From Chitinophaga pinensis (GTDB lineage Bacteria; Bacteroidota; Bacteroidia; UKL13-3): DNA of 59,333 nt. Each line of letters begins with the position of its first letter. The stretch's first letter is position 1. The DNA lies in the NCBI GenBank assembly GCA_945861965.1, contig CAMAWM010000013.1:1-59333 (forward strand). Direction: 5' to 3'. A program made the position numbers and the translations under genes. The notes beneath the pieces are model-generated. The model was not told the origin of the DNA. It saw nothing but the letters and a program-made list of their open reading frames with translations, and searched no databases. Positions 28,039 to 30,860 of this stretch are shown in pieces.

Positions 28039-28111
28039 CAGCAACAATTTTTAAGAATAAAAATTTTCAAAATTTTAACAAATAATAATTTTTAACTGTT
28101 GATATTTTTCA

Positions 28112-28723
28112 ATGAGCGAAGAGGAAATAACATATGGAAAAAAGTATTCCAGTATTGAACTGAATGGTCCAAATGGTATAGAAACTATTCCCCTAAAAAA
28201 AGCGGGAAAAAAGTTTATTCCTATAGGTAGTTTTATAGATAATGATATGCGTTCTGAATGCATTGAGGAGCGAATAAAAACAGATATAAACCCTTTGCTA
28301 ATCGAATTAGAAGAGTTAATTAAAGAGGTATTTCGATGCGAATTAAATTATGAATTATCAGTTAGTCCTGTCTTTATTAAGAATGCATCACTTGATAAAA
28401 TATTGCAAGGAATTGATGATTACATTTATACTTATTTAATTGTTAATGGTTTTATTTCTGAGAGGTTTACAATGCAAATTATTATAAATTGTACAAAAAA
28501 AGAAAAACATGACATTCAATTTTGGGGCACTGTCATAGACATAAGCTATTGGGGTGAAACTTGGTTGCAAGAAAGTACAGATCATGAATATAGCATATGG
28601 ATGTTAGATATTGAAAATGTTAAAACATTTGTTGACACTCCATACGAACCATATCAAAAAGAACTTATTTTATCGAAAATATTGGGCAATATTAAAATAG
28701 ATCATAAATATTATTATAAATAA
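28112..28723 (+). CDS. Orphan 203-residue cytoplasmic protein of unknown function
   Basis: I do not recognise this family. It opens with ATG at 28112 and has no signal peptide or membrane segment. It is acidic in the middle (IEELEELIKEVF-like helix, ~55-75) and aromatic toward the C-terminus (QFWGTVIDISYWGETWLQE, ~145-163), ending in HKYYYK. It looks like a small soluble alpha/beta protein. It lies 73 bp after the EF-G paralogue, and its stop is 1 bp before the left copy of the duplicated pcrA leader, so it may be part of the same accessory insertion. An immunity-protein role for a secreted neighbour is possible but only a guess. Confidence 0.7.
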   Translation: MSEEEITYGKKYSSIELNGPNGIETIPLKKAGKKFIPIGSFIDNDMRSECIEERIKTDINPLLIELEELIKEVFRCELNYELSVSPVFIKNASLDKILQGIDDYIYTYLIVNGFISERFTMQIIINCTKKEKHDIQFWGTVIDISYWGETWLQESTDHEYSIWMLDIENVKTFVDTPYEPYQKELILSKILGNIKIDHKYYYK

Positions 28724-28724
28724 C

Positions 28725-28842
28725 TTTTTTGTTGATATTTTACTCCTAATCCCTGACACAAAAATCTATTTTCGTTGCGTGGATTACTTGAATTTATTAA
28801 ACGAAAATCAGCGTGCTGCTGTGGAAGAAAGTGAAGGTCTGG
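28725..28842 (+). repeat. Direct repeat, left copy: duplicate of the pcrA promoter and first 21 codons
   Basis: It aligns with 30742-30860 with one 1-base gap and about six substitutions over ~118 bp. The duplicated stretch ends inside the coding sequence at the glycine-proline codons before the Walker A region. Confidence 0.95.
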
Positions 28843-28853
28843 ACTATTTTTAA
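28779..28853 (+). pseudogene. Orphan 5' fragment of the pcrA helicase gene
   Basis: A GTG start and 20 codons nearly identical to the start of the intact pcrA at 30797 (DYLNLLNENQRAAVEE) run into unrelated sequence and stop at TAA 28851-28853. The 24-codon product would have no function as a helicase. It carries the same upstream TATTTTCG element as the intact gene, so it may still be transcribed. Confidence 0.9.
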
Positions 28854-28884
28854 AAGTATCATCAATTCTCTTTCCGAAATTATT

Positions 28885-30141
28885 TTATTGAATAATAATT
28901 TTGTTAGTGTAAATTTTATCGCCAACTTTTACTTTTACAAAATATAAGCCTGCCTCTGCGCCCGAAAGATTTATTTCTTTTGAAAAGTTGTCAGTAATTT
29001 TTTGCGACAGTTCTACGTAAAGTGCTTTGCCTAAAATATCGGTAACTGTTATTTCAGCTTTTCCTTTAGCTTTTATTTCTATGATGAAAATTCCTGTTGT
29101 TGGGTTTGGATAAATTCGAAGGGTTGGATGTAAAAGAAAATATTCTGTTTTCCCGATTTCCGAAACACCTGTACTCCAAGGAGCATACTCCCAGAAGTCT
29201 TTATATTTCGTATCAGCACTATCATATCCCAAACCCACATATCCTTTGTTGCCTATGCTAAAACTAATTGTACTTGATCGATTACTATTATTTCCAAAAT
29301 TCGCTTTTTGCCTCCAAACATCGGAATCTGGATTGTACTCTATAAAATCCTTGTAATAATTAGTAAAACTAATTCCACACCCAACATATCCCTTATTGCC
29401 TATGCTAAAGCCAAAAGCCAAATATCTTGAACTATCAAGGTCTTTAATTCTATTCCAAGTATTTGTTGCTGGGTCATATTTCCAAAAATCTTTATTGGTT
29501 GATGTACCAGTAGGACTAAATCCTGTTCCAACATACCCATTGTTACCAATCGCAAATGCTACTGGACGTGAACGTGCTGAACCTGGAAAGTTTGTTTTAG
29601 GATACCATCGATTGCTATCGGGTTTGTATTCCCATAAATCATTTTTGTAACCTGTAGCATCTTTCCCGCAAGTTATATAACCACTATTGTTTATGCTAAA
29701 ACCAGCTGCCCACATTCTTGCTCCAGTAGGTAAATCTGCTCTTCGTGTCCAATAATTACTGTCAACATCATACTCCCAAAAGTCGCTGAAGGCTATAATG
29801 TATAATGAATCAATAGTTCCTTGTGTTCTACGTATAATATAACCTCCCCCAACATATCCCTTGTTTCCAATATTGAAACTTAAAGCTCCTATTCGTGCCA
29901 AGACGCCAATATTTGCTTTTTGCGCCCAAGTGTTGTTACTTGCATTATACTCCCAAAAATCATTGAATGTATCAGCAATTCCATAACCTGCACCACAACC
30001 TACATAGCCTTTGTTGCCAATACTAAAACCAATTGCCTGCTCCCTTACGTTAATGAAATCTGCTTTTTTTGTCCATTGCCCTTGAGCCAAACCTATTTCA
30101 GATATTGTAATGCAAATCGTAATAATTAGAATACGTTTCAT
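28885..30141 (-). CDS. Secreted Kelch-repeat protein with T9SS sorting domain
   Basis: A 418-residue exported protein. It has a signal peptide (residues 1-19, ending GLAQ) and six Kelch-type repeats of ~50 residues, each with a SIGNKGYVGCG-like strand pair and a DFWEYxxxxNxW strand; this suggests a six-bladed propeller. A C-terminal T9SS type A sorting domain follows (IYPNPTTGIFIIE, DILGK, GLYFVKVKVG, final IIIQ). Kelch propellers bind proteins or glycans; the ligand is unknown. It lies inside the 1.9 kb segment bracketed by the duplicated pcrA leader, 34 bp downstream of the small exported protein gene, so the two are probably co-transcribed. Confidence 0.88.
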   Translation of the reverse strand: MKRILIITICITISEIGLAQGQWTKKADFINVREQAIGFSIGNKGYVGCGAGYGIADTFNDFWEYNASNNTWAQKANIGVLARIGALSFNIGNKGYVGGGYIIRRTQGTIDSLYIIAFSDFWEYDVDSNYWTRRADLPTGARMWAAGFSINNSGYITCGKDATGYKNDLWEYKPDSNRWYPKTNFPGSARSRPVAFAIGNNGYVGTGFSPTGTSTNKDFWKYDPATNTWNRIKDLDSSRYLAFGFSIGNKGYVGCGISFTNYYKDFIEYNPDSDVWRQKANFGNNSNRSSTISFSIGNKGYVGLGYDSADTKYKDFWEYAPWSTGVSEIGKTEYFLLHPTLRIYPNPTTGIFIIEIKAKGKAEITVTDILGKALYVELSQKITDNFSKEINLSGAEAGLYFVKVKVGDKIYTNKIIIQ

Positions 30142-30175
30142 ATTTTTTTTTGAAATTTACAATTTACTATTTATA

Positions 30176-30673
30176 CTATTCGTCAGGTGGCGAGTTGCAA
30201 TTTAAAACAAGGCTGAAATCCTGACTTGGTGGATTAGGATATTGTTTGGTAACATTGATTTGACCAGATACGCAACATAAAGTAGAAATAGTTGCCGAAG
30301 TATTAGTATTAGCCATATACAATAAGTCCCAAGTACGACCAGTTGTATAAATATCCCATAACCAAACATGAGCTATAGTAATTGAATATACATTACCGTT
30401 ATTTAAATCCCATCGGTCTAACAAGTTATTGTCAGAAGGCAGAGTTACTATTCCTCCATTAGCAGATATACCAGGGCCATGTATAGCATCAGGATACCAT
30501 CGATTAGTTATTGGTGTTTGAGTGGTAACATTAAAGACTGAGTATTCAAACTGTATAACTTCAAAGTTGCAATGTGTATTATTAATTACACTAATTAAAC
30601 GTTGCCCAAAACTCATAGTTGGTATTCCCATAGCAAGTATGCTAATTAATAGTAGGTTTTTAAGAGTATTCAT
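30176..30673 (-). CDS. Small exported protein of unknown function
   Basis: A 165-residue protein with a clear signal peptide (MNTLKNLLLISILAMGIPTMSFG, cleaved before Q). The mature part is beta-rich with three cysteines (NTHCNF, two adjacent in LCCVSG) and a fourth near the end (VLNCNSPPDE), so one or two disulfides are possible. I see no T9SS sorting domain or lipobox. I do not recognise the family. It is the first gene of the two-gene minus-strand unit with the Kelch cargo, inside the segment flanked by the pcrA leader duplication, so it may act with that cargo. Confidence 0.75.
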   Translation of the reverse strand: MNTLKNLLLISILAMGIPTMSFGQRLISVINNTHCNFEVIQFEYSVFNVTTQTPITNRWYPDAIHGPGISANGGIVTLPSDNNLLDRWDLNNGNVYSITIAHVWLWDIYTTGRTWDLLYMANTNTSATISTLCCVSGQINVTKQYPNPPSQDFSLVLNCNSPPDE

Positions 30674-30741
30674 TTTTATTTCATTTATTCTATTGCAAAC
30701 GTATAATATTATTGTAACAAAAAATTAGAATCACGCATTAA

Positions 30742-30860
30742 TTTTTTGTTGATATTTTACTCCTAATTCACTGACACAAAAATCTATTTTCGTTGCGTGG
30801 ATTACTTGAATTTATTAAACGAAAATCAGCGTGCTGCTGTAGAAGAAACGGAAGGTCCGG
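30742..30860 (+). repeat. Direct repeat, right copy: leader and first 21 codons of intact pcrA
   Basis: It is the functional counterpart of 28725-28842. The element TATTTTCG (30785-30792) lies 4 bp before the GTG start in both copies. Confidence 0.95.

Follow-up and report, generated by a model that had tools for sequence, protein, structure and literature searches.

Two copies of the pcrA leader flank a pair of accessory genes in the window studied here (the whole stretch of DNA analysed, 59,333 nucleotides). This arrangement is probably a genuine scar of gene acquisition at pcrA (we put the probability at roughly 0.7), produced by illegitimate joining that duplicated about 115 nt of target, with no site-specific recombinase taking part. 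A 1.9 kb accessory segment would have been joined into the start of pcrA, leaving about 115 nt of target, i.e. the promoter region and about 20 codons, on both sides; the right copy would keep pcrA working, and the left would persist as a dead stub. The segment was presumably once absent from this site. Similar scars elsewhere in the genome, and at pcrA in other genera, suggest that genes are gained by a general route, not through a specialised mobile element. The features discussed are listed in Table 1.

Table 1. Features of the pcrA locus and further repeat pairs in the same genome. Positions without a locus prefix are those of the window.
Feature	Position	Strand	Basis or remark
Degenerate likeness to pcrA -88..-38, just before orphan gene	28057..28108	+	Alignment score vs shuffles
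Orphan gene, 203 aa, between EF-G gene and left leader	28112..28723	+	Possibly an earlier insertion
Left leader copy (pcrA leader and first ~20 codons), dead target duplication	28725..28839	+	Alignment to 30742-30857
TGTTGATATTT element, left-leader copy	28730..28740	+	Sequence comparison
pcrA stub ORF, 24 codons (MDYLNLLNENQRAAVEESEGLDYF, stop)	28779..28853	+	Read from sequence
Inserted segment, 1,902 bp	28840..30741		Single copy in genome; no terminal inverted repeats
Kelch beta-propeller protein with T9SS type A C-terminal signal, 418 aa	28885..30141	-	Pfam
Small exported protein, 165 aa, near-orphan	30176..30673	-	Signal-peptide-like start
Right leader copy, working pcrA promoter region and first codons	30742..30857	+	Aligned with pcrA 5' regions of relatives
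TGTTGATATTT element, 50 nt upstream of pcrA GTG	30747..30757	+	At -50/-51 in several genera of the family
pcrA, intact UvrD/PcrA helicase, 763 aa	30797..33088	+	GTG start, as in most relatives
106-nt repeat (94%), leader and first few codons of a TPR protein gene; brackets a TPR gene	L193:1040-2973, contig C7
94-nt repeat (85%), acyl-CoA dehydrogenase 3' end (decayed and true)	L183:9966-10983, contig C1
54/56-nt repeat (91%), alpha/beta hydrolase 3' end (stub and true)	L185:9212-12221, contig C1
42-nt repeat, terminator hairpin after rplT	L176:11193-13264, contig C1

Duplicated pcrA leader and the genes between its copies

Local alignment of the two leader copies (115 and 116 nt) gave 111 identical positions in 116 aligned columns, with four mismatches and one 1-nt gap. 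These differences fall within 28 positions of the start of the alignment or 22 of its end, and the copies are identical in between. With BLAST the repeat runs a few noisy bases longer, at about 95% identity over 118-120 nt, and self-BLAST E-values ranged from 1e-47 to 5e-51. The whole 2.10 Mb draft genome contains exactly two copies (BLAST), and, besides the Kelch repeats within the cargo gene, the pair is the sole direct-repeat family in the 59 kb window. A search for RNA families or tRNAs matching the repeat gave no hit. The insert is flanked by a duplication of native target in the range of tens to hundreds of bp, namely 115/116 nt of native pcrA leader. An initial reading of the window made from its letters (the sequence-only reading) had described the leader as a direct repeat with one 1-base gap, and the alignment agrees. 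Its starts (28725 and 30742) stand, while the homologous block ends at 28839 and 30857 (GGTC) and not at 28842 and 30860.

The left copy was also rightly described as a dead stub of 24 codons. Its reading frame extends from the GTG at 28779 to a TAA at 28853 and departs from pcrA past codon 20 or 21, with Gly-Leu at the junction where PcrA has a conserved Gly-Pro. The two copies differ by about 4-5%, so either some time has passed since the event or one copy arrived with incoming DNA of another strain.

Both genes between the copies are antisense to pcrA. The larger matched Kelch families in Pfam (down to E=7e-20) and PF18962 (Por_Secre_tail, E=6.5e-15). The smaller (30176-30673) gave no hit in the Pfam scan and has one relative, at 34% identity, among 64 family genomes. 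No transposase or integrase was found between the leader copies in the window, and the cassette was not found a second time in the genome. The Pfam matches and the signal-peptide-like start thus bear out the initial description of a T9SS cargo gene and a small exported protein gene on the opposite strand, unaccompanied by a transposase. The GC content of the insert is 0.341 against 0.347 in the flanks, which is only a slight difference.

Filled and empty sites at pcrA in related genomes

The genus of the window (g1) comprises one genome and its family 64 genomes in 14 genera; an order-level search added no family. The nearest pcrA in the family shares ~75% DNA identity with that of the window, and one of the loci examined came from the complete genome of Bacteroidetes bacterium UKL13-3. 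Genes upstream of pcrA vary from genus to genus in the family and differ from those of the window. Neither the EF-G paralogue, the orphan gene nor the cassette genes were seen beside pcrA among the relatives examined.

Each pcrA leader was searched against its own upstream 10 kb, and strong direct-repeat matches were obtained in three genomes: that of the window, G027 (genus g4) and G030 (genus g5). In G027, 61-nt copies of the pcrA leader surround a 4.17 kb insert with two T9SS cargo genes on the minus strand, antisense to pcrA, one with a type A tail (PF18962) and the other with a CHU_C tail (PF13585) according to Pfam. G028, of the same genus, is without the insert; the flanks are contiguous there, with an overlap of exactly 61 nt and identities of 93.0% and 94.5%. 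G026 (g4) also has no insert and carries one leader. The copies in G027 match at 57 of 61 positions and have common changes that are missing from G028. They are more alike than either is to G028, which indicates that the duplication postdates the split. The G027 case, which is independent of the window, is a target duplication in the strict sense, with an empty site. The sequence-only reading had predicted that genomes lacking a cassette would show a single leader, as is seen in g4 (G027 filled, G028 and G026 empty), and this comparison supports its proposal that genes were gained together with a duplication of the target, the gene entered keeping a working 5' end. In G030, the repeat measures 36 nt, takes in the conserved element discussed below and surrounds a gene of 175 aa; simple repeats interrupt its right copy.

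These sites also bear on a two-step scheme in which the pcrA 5' region was first duplicated in tandem and the two genes were then gained independently between the copies. Bacterial genomes often undergo duplications, but this scheme takes two events, the second falling exactly between the copies, at several loci, and G027 and G028 differ in insert and duplication together. It is the least probable of the explanations considered.

Other kinds of variation were observed upstream of pcrA. In G053, a T9SS cargo stretch (L059, -5990..-4422 from pcrA) is absent in G058 and G061 and is not accompanied by a target duplication, which shows that other routes of cargo gain or loss exist; some insertions between close family relatives likewise lack a duplication. 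In G046, pcrA is separated from an M20-type peptidase gene by a gene of the PorP/SprF family and two T9SS cargo paralogues (L085:2455-8075), which lie antisense to pcrA; no repeat of the pcrA leader is seen. In genus g8 (L054, L011 and L014, from G035, G036 and G044), 0.6-0.8 kb upstream of pcrA consists of repetitive intergenic units carrying short hairpins such as CCGTTGGTTTTAACCAACGG. The direct repeats upstream of pcrA in these three genomes resemble dispersed intergenic repeats and were left uncounted.

Further scars in the same genome

We surveyed stretches totalling 750 kb, including the window, or 36% of the genome (20 around T9SS cargo genes and 20 picked regardless of content), and listed direct and inverted repeats having at least one non-coding copy. 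Four further direct pairs were found (106, 94, 54/56 and 42 nt; inserts of 0.8-2.9 kb), a count that leaves out the window pair and a repeat array truncated at the end of a contig. Only one inverted pair, of 28 nt, passed the same filter. The 94-nt repeat brackets a 78-aa gene and a gene for a DUF6036-type nucleotidyltransferase, and in the stub copy of the dehydrogenase the motif GEGTSEIQ has become GKVTSEIQ, as expected of a dead copy. The 54/56-nt repeat brackets a 416-aa gene and a T9SS cargo gene, and the 42-nt repeat a toxin-antitoxin-like operon (HTH/HipA-N/HipA-C). Identities of the four pairs range from 85% to 98%, indicating events of unequal age. We are least sure of the 106-nt pair, since a gene still begins at each copy and a duplicated promoter, instead of an insertion scar, could account for it.

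The recurrence of such pairs makes it highly improbable that two strain variants were wrongly joined at the leader during assembly. The genome is a 61-contig draft and the leader copies differ as strain alleles might; such an artefact would, however, have to arise five times in 36% of the genome, each time with unique sequence between the copies of the repeat that it creates, and to recur in G027, where the flanks match the empty site of G028 exactly.

A more serious alternative, which we nevertheless consider unlikely, is homology-facilitated acquisition. Here a fragment from another strain, with different genes upstream, would have recombined within pcrA and been joined illegitimately at its other end, the left leader being the recipient's and the right leader the donor's. 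The ~5% difference between the copies would then be explained without age and no recombinase would be required; a homology-facilitated illegitimate process has been reported in competent bacteria and in E. coli conjugation (PMC3240628). The donor, however, must have had an earlier breakpoint exactly at the pcrA leader, and the changes shared by the G027 copies but absent from G028 mean that any donor there was very close. Taken alone, this process also leaves unexplained the cases at 3' ends and at a terminator, whose neighbours look undisturbed.

Common features of six inserts

Six inserts (0.8 to 4.2 kb) were compared, i.e. those of the window and G027 and the four further pairs in the window's genome. 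The length of the duplication differs by event (42, 54/56, 61, 94, 106 and 115/116 nt). Terminal inverted repeats were found in none of the six, end-to-end scores being at the level of shuffled sequences (p 0.30-0.72), and the 15 pairwise comparisons of the repeats gave no common target core clearly above shuffles (lowest p 0.06). None of the cassettes encodes a recombinase, transposase or integrase. GC content is below that of the flanks in six of six inserts, with a very small difference in the window. No restriction-modification genes, which are frequent but not defining cargo of insertions with long target duplication, were detected among the scanned cassette proteins (Pfam, PADLOC).

That all lack inverted repeats, a common target and a recombinase speaks for illegitimate joining and against a site-specific element. 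The sequence-only reading had likened the arrangement to integrative elements that rebuild the gene they enter. In its fullest form, the window would hold such an element or its remnant with a replacement pcrA 5' end, the repeats being attL and attR and the integrase acting in trans. The repeat lengths, 42-116 nt, would suit some gene-end integrating elements. Three tyrosine recombinase genes are present in the genome, all outside the cassettes; by appearance two look like XerC/XerD and one is a stand-alone protein of 363 aa that does not resemble XerC/XerD, a further point in favour of this form. A site-specific integrase is nonetheless unlikely because the targets share no sequence above shuffles and the inserts have no terminal inverted repeats. 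The cassettes also carry no recombinase and measure only 0.8-4.2 kb, and the target types differ (5' ends, 3' ends, a terminator), the same scar appearing at unrelated genes and at a terminator in one genome. We therefore do not retain this part of the initial interpretation and regard an integrative element as very unlikely.

Under the preferred reading of illegitimate joining, repair or replication would have acted on incoming DNA. Either a long staggered break may have been filled in, or replication may have switched template and restarted upstream. The resulting direct repeats should permit precise loss or circularisation of the segment via ordinary homologous recombination.

pcrA as a possible preferred entry point

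The pcrA leader contains a conserved element: in many genera of the family, pcrA is preceded at -50/-51 by TGTTGATATTT or TGTTGAAATCTT, with nearly fixed spacing. TGTTGATATTT was also considered as a general promoter or attachment element, and was rejected as not widespread (13 exact matches in the genome, compared with 6 for the reversed control). An exact TGTTGATATTTT at 28097, the third in the window, lies inside the degenerate pcrA-like match that precedes the orphan gene, for which the alignment score has p=0.002 against mononucleotide shuffles. Judged from sequence likeness, this match is suggestive of a decayed third leader copy and may hint at an earlier insertion at the same place. 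The orphan gene itself (28112..28723) has no homologue in the 63 other family genomes. Possibly, then, the g1 leader was hit twice in succession, first by the orphan gene and then by the Kelch pair.

It had been proposed that the pcrA 5' end is a repeated entry point for surface-protein cassettes. The leader was indeed hit in three genera (g1, g4 and g5), and inserts with T9SS cargo are present in the window and G027. Across the pcrA loci, 297 gene starts were tested; the one start outside pcrA that scored overlaps a repeat at the tandem T9SS cargo genes of G046. With the seed window excluded, repeats were found at 2 of ~43 pcrA leaders and 1 of ~254 other gene starts, a one-sided Fisher p of 0.056 with approximate denominators, so that enrichment stays at about 0.06. 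T9SS cargo genes directly upstream of pcrA were too few in number for an enrichment to be claimed; they were counted with a home-made profile of 10 sequences, which missed at least one cargo gene found by Pfam. That the pcrA leader and its -50 element are a preferred landing site for accessory cassettes across the family is thus a suggestive idea, to which we give a low probability. If it were true, some property of the leader (e.g. a protein bound there or stalling of the fork) would make insertions with long target duplication more likely at this site.

Significance and comparison with known systems

Members of the Bacteroidota have dozens of T9SS surface proteins in variable repertoires, and the movement of single genes without a mobile element is poorly understood. 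If scars of the present kind are common, they would offer a dated record of single-gene acquisition, with an exact target, an exact insert and a clock in the decay of the dead copy.

Several known systems resemble the one described here. Gene-end integrating islands, such as SXT in the 5' end of prfC, insert in a gene 5' end and keep a functional 5' end, but they have an integrase and one fixed attachment core, neither of which was found here. The minimal mobile elements of Neisseria are interchangeable gene sets between conserved genes and have no recombinase; they are swapped via flanking homology and leave no direct-repeat marks, unlike the present inserts. Homology-facilitated illegitimate recombination likewise needs no mobile element to add foreign DNA next to a homologous anchor, but alone it does not give direct repeats on both sides of the insert, as seen here.

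The window scar is best explained by a known but little-studied process. Published passages on the subject describe long, variable target duplications of about 100 bp without a mobile element (PMC3874152, PMC1643837, PMC3031569), and report them as frequent for restriction-modification genes in H. pylori (PMC1643837, PMC3031569, PMC3874152), which are also the genes for which long target duplication is mostly reported so far in these sources. Those passages mention neither multiple scars per genome nor a pcrA leader used in parallel, both of which are seen here. The closest parallels, as described in papers citing Nobusato et al. 2000 (Gene 259:99) and Furuta et al. 2010 (NAR 38:2428), are insertions of accessory genes with variable direct target duplications of ~100 bp and no transposase or integrase, likewise recognised by comparing filled with empty sites. 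Those insertions mainly concern restriction-modification genes of H. pylori, whereas T9SS and toxin-antitoxin-like cargo is carried here in a lineage of Bacteroidota. Such cargo in another phylum would make long target duplication a general route of gene gain, and one that can be tested in populations.
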